From a virus, in IMG/VR virus record IMGVR_UViG_3300028829_005800, positions 1 to 31,776 of that record: 31,776 nt of DNA, one strand, 5' to 3'. The translations under genes and the position numbers were made by a program. The notes under the pieces were generated by a model, which saw only the letters and a list, made by a program, of their open reading frames with translations, did not search any database and was not told where the DNA came from. Shown in pieces: positions 629 through 9,709 of this stretch. Positions within the stretch are counted from its first letter, which is position 1. Each line of letters begins with the position of its first letter.

Positions 629-673
629 GCATTCGTAATGCGTAGGCCCCCGGTTCAAATCCGGGCGGCGGCT
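629..673 (+). other. attP: attP core: 3' half of a tRNA-Thr(CGU) gene
   Basis: Read on the plus strand this is the 3' half of a tRNA. The anticodon loop TTCGTAA is at 632-638 with anticodon CGT at 634-636. The 3' anticodon stem TGCGT is 639-643 and the variable loop is 644-648. The T-arm CCCGG-TTCAAAT-CCGGG is 649-665, the acceptor strand CGGCGGC is 666-672 and the discriminator T is 673. There is no 5' half, so it is not a functional tRNA gene here. It lies next to the integrase stop codon at 680. This is the classic arrangement in which integration into a tRNA gene restores its 3' end from the phage copy. The anticodon stem has one mismatch at 628, suggesting identity with the host begins near 629. 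The predicted attB is the host tRNA-Thr(CGU) gene with 5' acceptor GCCGCCG. Confidence 0.88.
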
Positions 674-679
674 CTCTTT

Positions 680-1912
680 TTATCCCTGTTTTTTAGGGGT
701 TTTCTTGCGTCTTCTCTTTTTCTTCCCGCTTGTGTTTTTGGGAATGTTACCGCTTTTGTGACTAGGTTCAGTATTGCTACCCACGGCGGCCCATAATGTG
801 GCGCTGGTTTCTCGGGCATTTCCTACCAGGTAATATTTTTCGGTCGTCTGGATGGAGGCGTGGCGCATCATTTCCATCAATAGGCGGCTGTTAACGCGCG
901 GGGCCCATCGGGTACCAAACGCGCGGCGTAAATCATGGGCGGCCGCGAATATCTTTTTTTCCTCCTGGCGGCCCTTCTTATTGAGTACCATTTTTACATC
1001 GGTAATAATGCCGGCCTCGGATCCGATTTTACAAATCACCTTACTGATACTATCCAGGCGCGGCGGCGTTACCCGGATCCCCTCAAACCGCGGGCGGAAT
1101 ACCAGGCCGGTGGCCGGTGGTTCCTCGGGTAACATCATTTCGAATTCAGGGGCCACCGCCATAAATCTATCGGTGTTTCCTTTCTCGGCTTCCTGCTCGA
1201 TTTTAAAATAATAATGGCCCTGGTCTTTCACTAAACAGAACGGGCCATATTGCCAGGTTAGTTTCAGGGCTTCCCCCAGGCGCAAACCACCCCACCAGAG
1301 GCCCCGCAAAAAATACCGGAAACTCTCGGCGCATTCCTCCCCCACCACCTCGGGGGTTACTTTTATCATGCGGTCGAATTCTTCCCCGGTAATGGGCCGG
1401 CCCTTCATCACGCGGGCCCCTTTCGCGCGCTTGGGTAAATTGATCGCGGGAACGGCCTTGATTAAATCCTGAGAATGGGCCCATTTCAGGGCGGCCCGGA
1501 TATATGCCAGGTTTCCTTTGATGGTTTGTTCCGAACGGCCCTGGGCCCGCTTGTGGGCCTGGTATGCGGTTAACTGAGGGGCCCGTAATGTGGCCAGGCT
1601 TTTGATATTGATTACCTGGGCCAAATCATCCAAGACATAATTATATTTTCGGCGGGTGGTCTCGGCCAGGCTTGGTAAATGCTCTTGTTCCAATCGATAC
1701 CGGAATTGTGACCAGGTAACCCCCCGGGTGGGGGTATGGTTTCCATGGTTTAATTTTTCTTCCAGTTTACCGGCGTAAATATCGGCGGCCCGTTCGTTGG
1801 CGGTTCCCGTGGTTTCGGTTTTGGTTTTCCCGGTAATGGGATCCACCCACCGGCATTGGTAATGCGGTAATTTTTTCTGTTTGATTACTTTTACATTGTA
1901 TTCATTATCCAT
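680..1912 (-). CDS. int: Tyrosine site-specific recombinase (integrase)
   Basis: This 410-residue protein has the full tyrosine recombinase signature. Arm/core-binding regions occupy roughly residues 1-165 and the catalytic domain roughly 170-365. Arg211 lies in GGLRLGEAL, a probable Lys244 on the beta turn, His326-x-x-Arg329 in HDLRR, His351 in MMRHAS, and the nucleophilic Tyr360 in TTEKYYL. It would cut and rejoin attP (629-673) with a host tRNA-Thr gene. The stop codon lies seven bases from the attP core. The C-terminal tail after about residue 375 is lysine- and arginine-rich and its DNA carries one GAATGTTACCG repeat (742-752), so coding and recombination-site functions overlap. The start is ATG at 1912, overlapping the upstream excisionase-like gene by eight bases, so the two are probably co-translated. 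Confidence 0.95.
   Translation of the reverse strand: MDNEYNVKVIKQKKLPHYQCRWVDPITGKTKTETTGTANERAADIYAGKLEEKLNHGNHTPTRGVTWSQFRYRLEQEHLPSLAETTRRKYNYVLDDLAQVINIKSLATLRAPQLTAYQAHKRAQGRSEQTIKGNLAYIRAALKWAHSQDLIKAVPAINLPKRAKGARVMKGRPITGEEFDRMIKVTPEVVGEECAESFRYFLRGLWWGGLRLGEALKLTWQYGPFCLVKDQGHYYFKIEQEAEKGNTDRFMAVAPEFEMMLPEEPPATGLVFRPRFEGIRVTPPRLDSISKVICKIGSEAGIITDVKMVLNKKGRQEEKKIFAAAHDLRRAFGTRWAPRVNSRLLMEMMRHASIQTTEKYYLVGNARETSATLWAAVGSNTEPSHKSGNIPKNTSGKKKRRRKKTPKKQG
742..782. repeat. Right-side copy of the 41-bp attP arm element, inside int
   Basis: Bases 742-782 align without gaps to 434-474. GAATGTTACCG is exact at the start, a second exact block AGGTTCAGTA follows, and about 32 of 41 positions match by eye. 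One copy lies to the left of the tRNA core and one to the right, within the codons for the integrase C-terminal tail. This supports arm-site function for the integrase and shows selection on DNA as well as protein in this stretch. Confidence 0.6.
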
Positions 1913-2171
1913 TTCGAGCGCTTTCTTCCTGGATGATTCGGATTATTTCGGATCCGTGGCAAAAATAACTGTAACCCAGTTTTTCAATTCCCTTATTGGT
2001 GTAATTCTTCTTGATATGATCGGCCCATGTGGCCGGCATCCCCAAATCTGATACGGCCTGTTCAAATGGGTAATAAATGCCTGGGGATATCCCCGAGGGT
2101 ATTAAAAGTGAATTTTCTCTATTTCCTATTGACGTATCGCCACTAGAATGGCTATTGTGTTGGTTATCCAT
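1905..2171 (-). CDS. Small DNA-binding protein, probable excisionase/recombination directionality factor
   Basis: This 88-residue protein lies directly upstream of the integrase and overlaps it by eight bases, the usual place for an excisionase. Its second half, with WADHIKKNYTNKGIEKLGY followed by a C-terminal helix SEIIRIIQEE, resembles the winged-helix/MerR-like small adaptor or excisionase fold, in which a helix-turn-helix reads DNA and the C-terminus contacts integrase. The first 30 residues look disordered and are rich in Ser, Asn and His. The ATG at 2171 is preceded by AGGA with eight bases of spacing. Family membership is judged from size, context and pattern only. A transcriptional repressor is the alternative. 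Confidence 0.55.
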   Translation of the reverse strand: MDNQHNSHSSGDTSIGNRENSLLIPSGISPGIYYPFEQAVSDLGMPATWADHIKKNYTNKGIEKLGYSYFCHGSEIIRIIQEESARNG

Positions 2172-2223: not shown

Positions 2224-2258
2224 CCCGGGTTGAATGTCAGTTCTTCCCGGGTTTTTTT
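2224..2258 (+). terminator. Possible plus-strand terminator or operator pair
   Basis: CCCGGG at 2224-2229 can pair with CCCGGG at 2246-2251, followed by seven T residues (2252-2258) on the plus strand. The 16-base loop is large for a terminator. Read on the minus strand the same bases are two direct AACCCGGG copies 22 bases apart upstream of the excisionase-like gene, which would equally suit an operator. Confidence 0.3.
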
Positions 2259-2324
2259 GGTCAATCAGGTAAACGCAATTTATCCGTAATGCGTTTGGGG
2301 AAGGGGCGGCCCGCGGCCACTTTG

Positions 2325-2355
2325 AAAAAATACCGGTTTTGTTGGATTTACCGGT
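2325..2355 (-). terminator. Weak minus-strand terminator
   Basis: On the minus strand ACCGGT (2350-2355) pairs with ACCGGT (2332-2337) across a 12-base loop and is followed by a T-rich run (2325-2330). It would end transcripts coming from the tail operon before the integration genes. The six-base stem and long loop make it weak. Confidence 0.3.
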
Positions 2356-2499
2356 GGGGGTGGCGGGGCAGAATATAGAACACGGCATTGTGAGAAATGC
2401 CGATGGAGCTTAATAGCGGCCATCCTGGTTCCTAGCTTCAATAGGAATCGATGGGCGTTAGAAACACTGTGATAGTTGACGCTATCACCTTGAATCGGG

Positions 2500-2526
2500 G
2501 GGAGGTCTTCGGGCCTCCCTTTTTTT
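2500..2526 (+). terminator. Intrinsic terminator with UUCG tetraloop
   Basis: On the plus strand GGGAGGTC (2500-2507), the tetraloop TTCG (2508-2511) and GGCCTCCC (2512-2519) form an eight-pair stem, one pair a G-U wobble. Seven T residues follow (2520-2526). The T tract is only on the plus strand, so it terminates plus-strand transcription, opposite to all protein genes. It marks the 3' end of the candidate RNA. Confidence 0.85.
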
Positions 2527-2861: not shown

Positions 2862-3593
2862 TTAAAAAAACATCTCATTATCAATGCGTTCTATTTCGGC
2901 TTGTAACCGCATCCCATCTTCCAGGCCGGCGGCCCTCGAATCGGCCATAATCATATCACACAAATGATTATAGGAATCTTCCGTGGGGTATCGGTGGCCC
3001 CCGTGGATCCCCTGGGCATCCAGGGCGGCTTTAATCTCGGCGTATTGTTCCCGACTCATACCCCAATCAATATTCCAATACATCATCCGGGACGATGGGA
3101 GGCCCATTTTTTCCCACCACTGGCGGCATTGGGGTTGATAAAATATAAATTTCAGTTTTGGGAATCGGTTTAATAATTTCAATATTACTTTATTCCGCTT
3201 TTCGGCCCATCGTTCCACCGCGCGGGGGTTCCATTTGCTATCGAATAAAAAATACCACCCGGCCGATACTTTTCTAAAATCATCCCCCTGTATGCTGGCC
3301 ACATCAATATCGATAATTTGGGTGGCGAATACGCAATACATCAATTGACATTCATTTTCATACAATTCCAAAAGGGCCGGCAAATTATCGGCGCGGGTTT
3401 CGATGGATGAATGGTGGCCGTGGAAGTCTGTAAAACAAAACCGGGCGGCTATATCTTCCCGAAAAAATAAAACATTCTCGGCGTTAAAATCCGGGTGTAC
3501 CCGCTTGATATAGGAATGGCTGTTTTTGCTGTACCGTTCCTCCAATAACCGGTGAATATAACATACCCCCGTTAATAATATTTTATCCCCCAC
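2862..3593 (-). CDS. Hypothetical protein downstream of the glycosyltransferase
   Basis: This 243-residue protein matches no family I can name firmly. It starts at GTG (3591-3593), with AAGGGG nine bases upstream and four bases after the glycosyltransferase stop, so it is translated as the next cistron. The opening KILLTGVCYIHRLLEERY has the beta strand-turn-helix look of SGNH hydrolases or the WcbI-type polysaccharide enzymes, but the expected catalytic blocks are not clear. Tryptophan and aromatic content is high between residues 90 and 180, with a basic FPKLKFIFYQPQCRQWW block. By position it may act on the glycan made or transferred by the neighbour, or be a tail-tip accessory. No signal peptide or membrane segment is present. 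Confidence 0.7.
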   Translation of the reverse strand: MGDKILLTGVCYIHRLLEERYSKNSHSYIKRVHPDFNAENVLFFREDIAARFCFTDFHGHHSSIETRADNLPALLELYENECQLMYCVFATQIIDIDVASIQGDDFRKVSAGWYFLFDSKWNPRAVERWAEKRNKVILKLLNRFPKLKFIFYQPQCRQWWEKMGLPSSRMMYWNIDWGMSREQYAEIKAALDAQGIHGGHRYPTEDSYNHLCDMIMADSRAAGLEDGMRLQAEIERIDNEMFF

Positions 3594-3597
3594 GGTT

Positions 3598-5427
3598 TCA
3601 TCCCCTTATTATTACCAGTTCTTTATCATTCCGGTGGCGGGCCAGGCCCCCGATATCATGGTTAAAACCATTCCCCACCTGGGCGGCTTTGAGCTTGCGT
3701 TTTATTTCGTCCCGCATTTCTGAACCATGGCCGGTGGTAACCTGATCGTTAGATAATGAGGGGCCATGTAAACGGCGGTGGGCCAGTATTTCATCGATGG
3801 CGGCCGCGCGGGCCCCGGATCTAATGGCCCGTTCATAATATTCGGAATCGGCACCGGCCACCCATGGGGCCATCCCGTTTGTTTTTTCATAGATTGATTT
3901 ACTTATCAAGGCGGTGGAATTAACAATGTTACCACTTGGGCTTCCAAATCGTTTAATACCCGAATAATGATAGGGTTTAGCGCTGAGCGCTTTTCTCATG
4001 CGCGGGTTTTTATCGCTGTACGTGGTAAACTGCTCCATGGCCCCACCCACAATATCAAACCCGCGGGCCATCACTTCAAATGATTTATATAATCGCATTG
4101 GGGTACTTAAATCGTCGGAATCCTGGTTGGCAAAATGATCGTATTTCAAATGATCGAATACCCGGTTTAATGAGACGTAAGGCCCCACGGGCCCATCGAT
4201 ATTCCGATAAAGCAATACATTATCCAGGCGGTTAAATTCTTCCCCCACCGGATCCGGGCCGGCCATCCCATCATTGATTAAATGAACCAATACCCCGACA
4301 AAATTCTGATTCAATACCGATTTAATCGAATCGGCCAGGTATTCATAATTCGGGCCGTTGTAAGGTATCACCACATCGGCCCAATATTGGCGGCGGTGGG
4401 CCGATGGATGTACCGGGGCGGTTACCTTGACCACCTGCAATCCAGGGGCGGGGGGATCCACCAGGGCGGGGGCGGCGGTATTTTTCAGGGTGGCGCTTAT
4501 CCCCGGCCGCGGGCCCCTCGGGCGGCGGGTGCGGGCCTGGAAATATTCTTTAATGGCGGCGTGTAATTCGGGTTTGGCGGTGGCCCATGCACATAACCCG
4601 GCGGGATCCGTTTTTATGTCGGTATCTTTATCGAATTGGTGGCGGGTTAATATGGCTTCCCTGGTTGACCACTGGCGGGCCTTTAAGGGGCCATGGTCCA
4701 AATGGGTTACCGCACCACTTACATGGCCCACCCGGGAATCCTTGGGCCAGGAATTGATTAAACCCCAATCACCACCCCCCACAATGTATCCACCTGGGAA
4801 TCCCCCCGCGGGCATATCTTCCAGGCGGGCGGCCCATGCTCCACCGGGCATCCCTCGGTTTTTCGATACGGCCCACCCGGGGCGGGTTTCTTCAATTAAA
4901 CCGGTGGGGCCCTGGTATTCCACCGCGTCAAACAATTGAACAAAATAATATTGTTCCAGGGCCTTGGCGGCTTCCTGGTACCACCGCGGATTTTTAAAGA
5001 GTAAATCCGCATCAATCCAGGCCACCGCATCCACTGAGGCCCCCAGGGCCTTTAATGCAATATTGAGTAAATATTCTTTTTGCCACATCAAATGGTGGGC
5101 CGGATCCCCTTTTACCTGGATGGCCGCGGGGTTATGGAATTCCCCATTAAAAGACAATTCCACCACCTGGGCGGGCTGGCCCAAATCGGCCAGGAATCGG
5201 CGGTAATTCTCAAATAACCGCGGATCATTCAGGGGGTTAAAATAACAGGATATCACGGCCATGTTTTTTACCGGGGTGGCGTTGGGTGGTTTCTCGTTAC
5301 CCCATCCCGGGCAAGTGGCGCGCGTTCTGATTACTTTCTGGTATTCCTCGGCGTGGGCCTGGCAATAATAATTACGGCGGCGGGGGCATACCTGGCATTT
5401 TTGGCGCTTGGTTTTGTGGTCCATCAT
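3598..5427 (-). CDS. Two-domain glycosyltransferase with N-terminal cysteine cluster
   Basis: This 609-residue protein has three parts. Residues 1-45 carry C11xxC14, C22 and C39, a likely zinc-binding or structural cysteine cluster. Residues about 53-300 form a glycosyltransferase-like domain with WIDADLLF (DxD at 139-141) for metal-sugar nucleotide binding. Residues about 348-600 form a second, GT2/GT-A-like domain, opening with DVVIPYNGPNYEYLADSIKS and carrying NQDSDD at 434-439. The protein would transfer sugars onto a protein or glycan acceptor. It overlaps the upstream gene by ATGA and lies at the distal end of the tail module, so modification of the virion adhesins or of the host surface is likely. 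Phage glycosyltransferases usually modify DNA or host O-antigen. Two transferase folds in one tail-operon protein is less usual. Confidence 0.8.
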   Translation of the reverse strand: MMDHKTKRQKCQVCPRRRNYYCQAHAEEYQKVIRTRATCPGWGNEKPPNATPVKNMAVISCYFNPLNDPRLFENYRRFLADLGQPAQVVELSFNGEFHNPAAIQVKGDPAHHLMWQKEYLLNIALKALGASVDAVAWIDADLLFKNPRWYQEAAKALEQYYFVQLFDAVEYQGPTGLIEETRPGWAVSKNRGMPGGAWAARLEDMPAGGFPGGYIVGGGDWGLINSWPKDSRVGHVSGAVTHLDHGPLKARQWSTREAILTRHQFDKDTDIKTDPAGLCAWATAKPELHAAIKEYFQARTRRPRGPRPGISATLKNTAAPALVDPPAPGLQVVKVTAPVHPSAHRRQYWADVVIPYNGPNYEYLADSIKSVLNQNFVGVLVHLINDGMAGPDPVGEEFNRLDNVLLYRNIDGPVGPYVSLNRVFDHLKYDHFANQDSDDLSTPMRLYKSFEVMARGFDIVGGAMEQFTTYSDKNPRMRKALSAKPYHYSGIKRFGSPSGNIVNSTALISKSIYEKTNGMAPWVAGADSEYYERAIRSGARAAAIDEILAHRRLHGPSLSNDQVTTGHGSEMRDEIKRKLKAAQVGNGFNHDIGGLARHRNDKELVIIRG

Positions 5428-7184: not shown

Positions 7185-9709
7185 AACGATATCGGCCCAT
7201 CCAATGTACTGCGGTTACTGGTTAACTCACCACCAGATTTAATCAATTCCTCATACGTTAAACCGGCCCCGAAATGTACCTCCCCTTCCCGTATTGTAAT
7301 TTTCTTAAAGTAGGCCTCCTCTTTTGGCATGGGTACCAATGCCACTTCCCCACCTAATACCAGGATTTCGGCGGTATTCGGCGTGGCATCCCCTTTTATT
7401 TGTATGGCGGCTTCCCCATCCTGGCCCGTACCGCTATCGCGTACCTCGATAATTGGTGAACTCGTTTCAATATCCAGTTTAATCATATTGGATCCGGGGC
7501 CCGCATCCCCGATCCCGATAATAATATCGGTGGCGGTAATCTTTAAATGGGTGGGCCGGTACTCGTAATAATTGGCATTCCGGCGGGGTAATCCCATTTC
7601 CACCCCATAATTATGGATTTCCAGGCGGGTTAATGTCACCAGGCTATCGGGGCCGTACCATAGGGAATCCCCATCCAGAATAAATACATTATCCCCATTT
7701 ACGGGCACGGTGTTCGTGTCCCAATTGGCGGCGGTTTTCCAATCGTTGGGGCCCTCGGCGGCCGTTGTCGTGGTATGGGTTAACGGGGCTTGTGTCGTGG
7801 TTACTTCAATTTCAGGGCCATCGGTGGCGGCCTGGGTTTCGGCGGTGGTTCCCCCGATCACCGCCACCATATTCAAATCAGTACCCCCCAGGGCATTTTG
7901 AAAAGTCATTACCACGGCGGTTCCCGGCAAATCCCCACCCGTACAAACCACGTTCCCGGTACCCACGGTGGTTAATCCTTCCAGGGCGGTTTGCACGGTG
8001 GCCGCGCTCGCGTTATATGCCAGGGCGGCCGTTTCTTCCCCCTCGTATGATAAACCGAACGTACCCGCGCCGGGGCTTCCGGTAATGGTTAGGGTTTGTA
8101 CTTCTGAGGTACCCGCGGCCCCCGAATGGATTAAATGGGATTTTGAATCCGGGGAAACGGTGGCGGTATTGGTGCCGATGGTTACCGATAACCCGGTGGC
8201 CTGGTTGGCCAGATCCCCGATAAACTCCAGGCGGCGCATCGGGTACGATCCCTGGCCAGTGTCACCGGTTACCGTTACATTACCGGCCCCCACGGTGGTT
8301 AATGCTTCAATGGCGGCCTGTACGGTGGCATTCGTGGCGGTTACTGAAATATCGTCGGTGCTTTCTCCATCCACGGTAATAAAAAATGAGGTTAAATCGG
8401 AATCCATAGAATCATATTGAGGATTTGAGGGGGATGCTTTGGTATAGGTTCCCCCGGTTAGGGAATTGGTTAGCGTTACGGCCGCGGCCATGGTGGCGGC
8501 CGTTTTCCCGGCCTCGGGGGTAATGTTAAAATAAACCGTATCCCCGTCTGATAATTGGCCCGTACCGGTGCTGGATCCCTCCCGGACATAAACCGCGTAT
8601 TGATAATTCCCACCGGTAGCCAGGCGGGGGGCGGCATCCAGGGCGGCTTGTACTTCGGATAATGTGGCATCGTAGGCAATGGCCGCGGTGGTAAAAATCA
8701 CATCCGAATCGATGGATAATGATAAAATAAACGTACCGGCGCTCACTGAATTATCCCCGGTAATGGTGAATGCTCCATCTGAGTTCCCGGCCGAATTAAT
8801 CCGCACCTGCCATAATTCACTTACCCCGCCACCCCCTGGCGTGGTTTCGGCCACTGAGGCGGCCAGGCCCCCGGTTAAATTGGCCCCATCAAATACCAGG
8901 GCGGCTTGGTCCACCTTGGCCAGTGTGCCGATAAATTCCACGGCATAAGGGCCCCCCGCGGATCCTGTAACATCGACGTTACCCACCCCGATATTACTGA
9001 GGGCTTCCAGGGCGGCTTCTACGGCGGCGGCGCTGGCGTTGTATGCCAGGGCGCTGGTTTCTTCCCCCTCGAATGTTAATGTAAACGTACCACCGGTGGC
9101 GGTATTCAGGGTAACCGTTTGAATTTCGTTTACCCCTTCCAGGGCGGTGGTATCGGCGGTAATTTTTGCCACATCGGTATCGGCCAGGGCCCCGGTAAAC
9201 TCGACGGTATACGGGCCCCCCGCGGATCCGGTAACATCGACGTTACCCACCCCGATATTACTGAGGGCTTCCAGGGCGGCTTCTACGGTGGCGGCGCTTG
9301 CGTTGTATGCAATGCTCCCGGTGGTTTCCCCGTCGAATGTTAATGTAAACGTACCACCCGTGGCGGTGCCCACAATGGTAATAACCTGGATTTCATTGGT
9401 ATCGGATCCCAATAAAAACACTACAGTAAATGGCTTTCCCTCGGTGTCGGCCGTTAATGTAATGGTACCATCTCCATTATCGGTGGCGGTAACCTCCTGG
9501 AATTCGGGGATTTCTGAGGCGTTCCACAAATCCACAAAATTGGCGGCCACTGATAAAACCAATGGCCCGGCCGGTAATGTGTATTCAATCGATTTATTAT
9601 TAATGGTGGCGGTTATCACCTGATCGGTTTCCACATCCGTGGGGAATGTTAATAAATCCACCTGGGCCACCGCGGGGGCTCCACCGATTAAAATATGATC
9701 CGTTGGCAT
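7181..9709 (-). CDS. Large tandem-repeat tail fibre/adhesin protein
   Basis: This 842-residue protein is dominated by repeats of about 88 residues with the pattern EIQ-x-T(I/V)-GGTFTLTF-GE-T-x-x-(I/L)AYNASAA-x-V-AALEAL-x-x-(I/V)G-GNV-V-G-x-PY-VEF-G-LA. Clear copies start near residues 105, 193 and 540, with more diverged copies between. The family is common in secreted proteins and phage tail fibres and forms beta-sandwich modules. Residues about 650-842 differ. They start with a Thr-rich linker and contain NDWKTAANWDTNTVPVNGD, a motif seen at the start of beta-helix adhesins. The protein probably forms the receptor-binding fibre. The ATG at 9709 has AGGTG five bases upstream. Two repeats are nearly identical at the DNA level, showing recent duplication or gene conversion. 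Confidence 0.8.
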   Translation of the reverse strand: MPTDHILIGGAPAVAQVDLLTFPTDVETDQVITATINNKSIEYTLPAGPLVLSVAANFVDLWNASEIPEFQEVTATDNGDGTITLTADTEGKPFTVVFLLGSDTNEIQVITIVGTATGGTFTLTFDGETTGSIAYNASAATVEAALEALSNIGVGNVDVTGSAGGPYTVEFTGALADTDVAKITADTTALEGVNEIQTVTLNTATGGTFTLTFEGEETSALAYNASAAAVEAALEALSNIGVGNVDVTGSAGGPYAVEFIGTLAKVDQAALVFDGANLTGGLAASVAETTPGGGGVSELWQVRINSAGNSDGAFTITGDNSVSAGTFILSLSIDSDVIFTTAAIAYDATLSEVQAALDAAPRLATGGNYQYAVYVREGSSTGTGQLSDGDTVYFNITPEAGKTAATMAAAVTLTNSLTGGTYTKASPSNPQYDSMDSDLTSFFITVDGESTDDISVTATNATVQAAIEALTTVGAGNVTVTGDTGQGSYPMRRLEFIGDLANQATGLSVTIGTNTATVSPDSKSHLIHSGAAGTSEVQTLTITGSPGAGTFGLSYEGEETAALAYNASAATVQTALEGLTTVGTGNVVCTGGDLPGTAVVMTFQNALGGTDLNMVAVIGGTTAETQAATDGPEIEVTTTQAPLTHTTTTAAEGPNDWKTAANWDTNTVPVNGDNVFILDGDSLWYGPDSLVTLTRLEIHNYGVEMGLPRRNANYYEYRPTHLKITATDIIIGIGDAGPGSNMIKLDIETSSPIIEVRDSGTGQDGEAAIQIKGDATPNTAEILVLGGEVALVPMPKEEAYFKKITIREGEVHFGAGLTYEELIKSGGELTSNRSTLDGPISL
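8949..9357. repeat. Near-identical 264-bp-period repeat within the fibre gene
   Basis: Bases 8949 to about 9093 and 9213 to about 9357 are almost identical at the DNA level, offset by 264 bases (88 codons). Long exact blocks cover the GCGGATCC, GTAACATCGACGTTACCCA and ATATTACTGAGGGCTTCCAG segments. Third-position identity implies a recent duplication or conversion rather than protein-level constraint. Confidence 0.85.

Follow-up and report, generated by a model that had tools for sequence, protein, structure and literature searches.

To our knowledge, almost all phage small RNAs described so far come from Proteobacteria and Firmicutes, and a literature search for Planctomycetota prophages carrying small RNAs returned nothing on point. 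By position, the nearest analogue of the RNA described in this report is the int-alpA RNA, which Weinberg et al. reportedly found in 2017 to be associated with phage integrase and excision-regulator genes. Lambda OOP-type antisense RNAs are short, terminated, and convergent to phage genes, and OOP itself overlaps its target gene. The CI RNA of P4 is a structured prophage RNA that resides in the control region of its element and is tied to the lysogenic state, and IsrK of Gifsy-1 and other prophage small RNAs have their own promoter and terminator (PMC4825925).

We analyzed a virus record of 31,776 bases (hereafter, the window), which is placed among the phages of Planctomycetota by its structural proteins and the relatives of its terminase. 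The structural proteins recognized include terminase, portal, major head protein, and tape measure. Adjacent to an integrase gene and an excisionase-like (xis-like) gene lies a segment that is almost certainly a genuine structured RNA gene (Table 1). We propose that its plus strand encodes the first described member of an RNA family carried by certain prophages and integrated elements of Planctomycetota within their lysogeny module. As judged from five members, this is a new family, outside Rfam, of an already known kind, namely the phage small RNAs.

The likeness to the int-alpA RNA (RF02996) is one of context only, in that all five members of the new family lie near an integrase gene and a gene in the position of an alpA/xis-type HTH gene. 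The int-alpA RNA is about 70 nt long with two short hairpins, whereas the window RNA has three hairpins and a terminator within about 144 nt, and the int-alpA model matched none of the five RNAs at its cut-off of 35.8 bits. With CI RNA, the window RNA shares a structured fold and a location in a prophage control region. However, CI RNA arises by processing of the leader of an operon that it terminates and pairs with the flanking seqA and seqC sequences, whereas the window RNA is followed by no same-strand operon, and no complementary targets in cis rose above shuffled controls near the RNA at any of the five loci. Similarly, the window RNA resembles IsrK in being prophage-encoded with a terminator and a candidate promoter, but read-through of IsrK yields mRNA for downstream genes, and no convincing same-strand gene follows the RNA in the window. 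This includes any toxin gene of the kind expected for a type III toxin-antitoxin RNA arrangement. Finally, the window RNA is short, terminator-ended, and convergent to phage genes as is OOP, from which it differs by carrying several covarying hairpins and by not overlapping any gene for which homology or a coding signal gives support.

Table 1. Features of the window and homologous RNA loci. Positions refer to the window unless a locus is named.
Feature	Position	Strand	Evidence or remark
Tyrosine integrase gene	680-1912	-	PHROG integrase, E 1e-32
Excisionase-like small gene (xis-like)	1905-2171	-	Assigned by position; no Pfam match in the window
Separate terminator-like hairpin upstream of xis	2224-2258	+	Similar hairpins precede xis-int genes at many Planctomycetota loci
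Inverted repeat AAACGCA-N12-TGCGTTT, possible operator of divergent control region	2271-2296		Counterparts in L152, L237
Inverted repeat ACCGGT-N12-ACCGGT, possible operator	2332-2355		Counterparts in L152, L188, L234 with CGGC/GCCG-type stem
TATA-like box AATATAGA, possible -10 element	2372-2379	+	Just before H1
Small RNA gene, ~144 nt	2383-2526	+	Fold z -5.28; homologs; covariation at 30/44 pairs
Hairpin H1	2383-2402	+	5/7 pairs with double-sided changes in some member
Hairpin H2, outer and apical helices, ~7-nt loop	2414-2460	+	13/18 pairs with double-sided changes in some member
Hairpin H3	2469-2488	+	6/8 pairs with double-sided changes in some member; also recovered on sequence-only alignment
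Intrinsic terminator, UUCG loop and seven T	2497-2526	+	Top terminator-like site; all cells paired in 5 members
RNA homolog	L152:4218-4359		Model R1, E 1e-13; beside best integrase match
RNA homolog	L188:1501-1642		Model R2, E 8e-7 per genome
RNA homolog	L234:7251-7106		Covariance model, E 1e-4; locus reached via the integrase of L188
RNA homolog	L237:4393-4246		Model R3, E 1e-4; upstream of integrase from earlier neighborhood set

A sequence-only reading of the window had described a run of perfect hairpins on the plus strand that ends in an eight-pair, UUCG-capped stem and seven T residues. The hairpins are present, except that H2 is imperfect, with one internal mismatch and one bulge. The terminator is as described, with eight core pairs (up to 11 when G-U and A-U pairs are included) before the T-run. 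The window contains no fewer terminator-like sites than chance would give (17 found, 12.3 +/- 4.0 expected), but this one, which is conserved in relatives, ranks above all the others. The predicted folding energy of the RNA is -62.0 kcal/mol, compared to a mean of -41.5 (SD 3.9) for 200 shuffled sequences, none of which reached the native value. For the window and three of its homologs, z-scores against their own shuffles range from -5.1 to -6.9. The lowest-energy fold of L188 taken alone exchanges H1 and H3 for other pairing, and its centroid structure retains H1.

The same reading had held that the RNA belongs to no known family, and this is borne out by Rfam 15. The window gave no match at the gathering score, the region 2100-2620 gave chance-level matches only at E values up to 10, and no family matches the RNA of the four homologs. 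These homologs were found by searching Planctomycetota genomes for integrase genes and then scanning the integrase neighborhoods with covariance models built from the window alone (R1), from two sequences (R2), or from four sequences (R3). They are diverged and represent prophages or integrated elements in four genomes, all within a single bacterial family covered here by 170 genomes. Phage tail-type genes surround the RNA in L188 and L237. In L152, few phage genes were recognized nearby, and thus this locus may be a degraded prophage or integrated element.

No additional members came from other integrase loci in this bacterial family, and the RNA is missing from most of the other Planctomycetota integrase loci examined (roughly 60), from which it follows that it is optional for lysogeny. 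The phage most similar to the window overall (G002, L091), whose terminase is 55% identical and whose late-gene order is shared, carries a different integrase and no RNA homolog; the closest phage records likewise have other integrases and no RNA. No relatives emerged when viral contigs were scanned for the integrase and the glycosyltransferase, or from blastn searches against phages and plasmids. DNA patterns derived from the conserved blocks matched only coding sequence, by chance. Weak R3 matches elsewhere in genomes (24 to 35 bits) were rejected as homologs after the five best proved to be ordinary gene terminators, and none of the loci L248 to L265 among these matches lies near an integrase gene.

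Conserved structure with compensatory changes, a general criterion for a bacterial small RNA gene, is found at 30 of the 44 pairs; on the model-fitted alignment, both bases of each such pair are altered in one or more of the five members. Stems that break without compensation in relatives, which had been named in advance as an outcome that would count against the RNA, were looked for, and the stems proved to be compensated. On this alignment, 93% of cells pair, compared to 37-52% (and 4 to 11 double-changed pairs) when the partners are slid by one to three columns. Because fitting an alignment to the structure biases it in favor of that structure, four members were also aligned by sequence only and then folded; this fold still contained portions of H1, of H3, and of the terminator, including eight double-changed pairs. 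These patterns indicate that the stems are maintained by compensatory change and that the structure is under selection. The loop of H2, in contrast to this conserved scaffold, varies in sequence among members. A pseudoknot between TTCAA and TTGAA, suggested from the window, does not hold up, since the five pairs possible there fall to 2, 1, 0, and 3 in the four relatives.

An open reading frame on the opposite strand is open in both the window and L152 (36% identity over 72 amino acids), and opposite-strand coding was considered for this reason. It was rejected as a coding gene, given that its differences are spread evenly over codon positions (33/27/35) compared to those of the integrase gene (177/140/271).

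The RNA had originally been drawn as beginning at position 2260. However, the region 2260-2382 contains two inverted repeats and a TATA-like box ahead of H1, and is more likely promoter or control DNA than part of the RNA. Each of the five members has an ATATA sequence no more than about 12 nt before H1, on the strand that also carries the terminator. No good -35 hexamer was seen, and the TATA box lies closer to H1 than would be expected if transcription began precisely there. From these conserved elements, transcription probably starts near 2383, driven by a TATA-box promoter directed away from the xis-int genes, and would stop at the terminator, giving an RNA predicted to fold into the three covariation-supported hairpins and the terminator stem. 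The half-sites of the repeat at 2271-2296 are the same in L152 and recur in L237 with a 5-nt spacer. We read both repeats as candidate operators of a divergent control region shared by xis-int and the RNA, where bound regulators would govern production of the RNA.

The order integrase, xis, and then the RNA directed away from them is found in all five members, with the RNA directly upstream of and divergent from the xis-like gene. The genes in the xis position of the relatives give weak HTH_17/MerR matches. In the window, the genes flanking the RNA on both sides lie on the opposite strand, and the gene facing it is the end of the late operon. At the other loci, the facing genes are of tail type (L237) or encode LexA-type DNA-binding proteins (L188 and L234). 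Because both the facing genes and the integrases differ between members, the stable association of the RNA is with the xis-int control region.

Given this constant location, the RNA most likely serves lysogeny or excision. Standing alone, with loops that vary on a conserved scaffold, it also fits a trans-acting regulator. With a little better than even confidence, we regard it as a stand-alone small RNA of the lysogeny module, likely trans-acting, in some Planctomycetota prophages and integrated elements, where it would most likely tune the lysogenic state or excision, either by base pairing or by binding a protein. Among the three functions originally suggested, a trans-acting RNA linked to lysogeny fits best because the RNA always lies next to xis-int, and its support is this constant placement. 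If the RNA gene is real, its location makes a role in lysogeny or excision reasonably probable, rather than one directed at the host. Supported by covariation and fixed at the xis-int junction, the RNA offers a concrete candidate through which RNA control of lysogeny can be tested in Planctomycetota, and its five members and predicted structure are available for probing. One further, rather improbable elaboration is that Planctomycetota prophages have an RNA-based switch for lysogeny or immunity whose specificity is determined by this RNA, and in which a fixed scaffold with freely varying loops is exchanged between phages with different integrases and the loops set mutual recognition among phages.

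A less probable but still serious explanation is that the RNA is a moron that regulates bacterial mRNAs or a host protein, and that it sits at xis-int merely where insulated extra genes gather. Its presence in a minority of loci beside different integrases is cargo-like, it has its own terminator, and no phage target was found in cis. However, cargo genes usually vary in place, whereas the place and orientation of this RNA are constant in five elements. It is quite unlikely that the RNA is instead a cis-antisense or convergent-transcription device that reduces read-through of a late or tail operon running toward it. In the window, the RNA does face the downstream side of the late operon, which runs leftward. 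The antisense role against tail-operon read-through that was first suggested is not general, because the facing neighbor differs between members and is a LexA-type regulator gene in two of them. Moreover, the RNA overlaps no supported gene, and such a device would not need a multihairpin structure kept by compensation.

Still less probable is a DNA element whose inverted repeats act as recombination, replication, or packaging sites and only resemble hairpins. Inverted repeats are equally palindromic as DNA and the likely attachment site is close by, but the T-runs and TATA boxes always occupy the same strand, the G-U pairs, bulges, and loops obey RNA rules, and the stems differ widely in sequence, which protein-binding sites do not. 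The least credible explanation is chance, with hairpins that merely happen to accompany an ordinary terminator, for although shuffles of the window have about as many terminator-like sites and weak model matches elsewhere are ordinary gene terminators, the fold z-scores of four members and the covariation of H1, H2, and H3 independent of the terminator refute it unless the homologs are wrong.

Several other features surround these loci. Beside the integrase gene, positions 629-673 (plus strand) of the window have exactly the form of a tRNA 3′ half, with an anticodon loop TTCGTAA that appears Thr-like by eye. This stretch is the likely core of the attachment site. It is flanked by AATGTTACCGGG-like units repeated within 257-755 (at 262, 438, 468, 479, 507, and 746), which are possibly integrase arm sites.

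The separate hairpin upstream of xis in the window would insulate the RNA from antisense transcription leaving int-xis. Terminator-like hairpins with T-runs, antisense to the integrase gene and just upstream of xis, occur at roughly 20 Planctomycetota integrase loci, including the window, L271, L293, L270, L268, and L150, and sequences such as GTTGCA or CTGCAA recur in their loops. They may block transcription that would otherwise run into the prophage from the side of the attachment-site tRNA.

A stem-loop motif, CGGCTGTAGCGATTNTGCCG, is identical upstream of the RNA in L152 (about 4169-4188) and L188 (about 1434-1453). In the 170 genomes of the host family it is about three times more common than its reversed control, a ratio estimated from a table, and there is no RNA homolog at these host loci. 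It is possibly the site of a host regulator. In L237, a borderline int-alpA match (3076-3142, minus strand; 36.1 bits versus the cut-off of 35.8) lies upstream of a primase-like open reading frame, about 1.1 kb from the RNA homolog in the same element. Lastly, a large hairpin followed by a terminator lies between xis and the RNA in two related prophages (L244, about 2100-2375; L234, about 7370-7490), and could represent a second small RNA.
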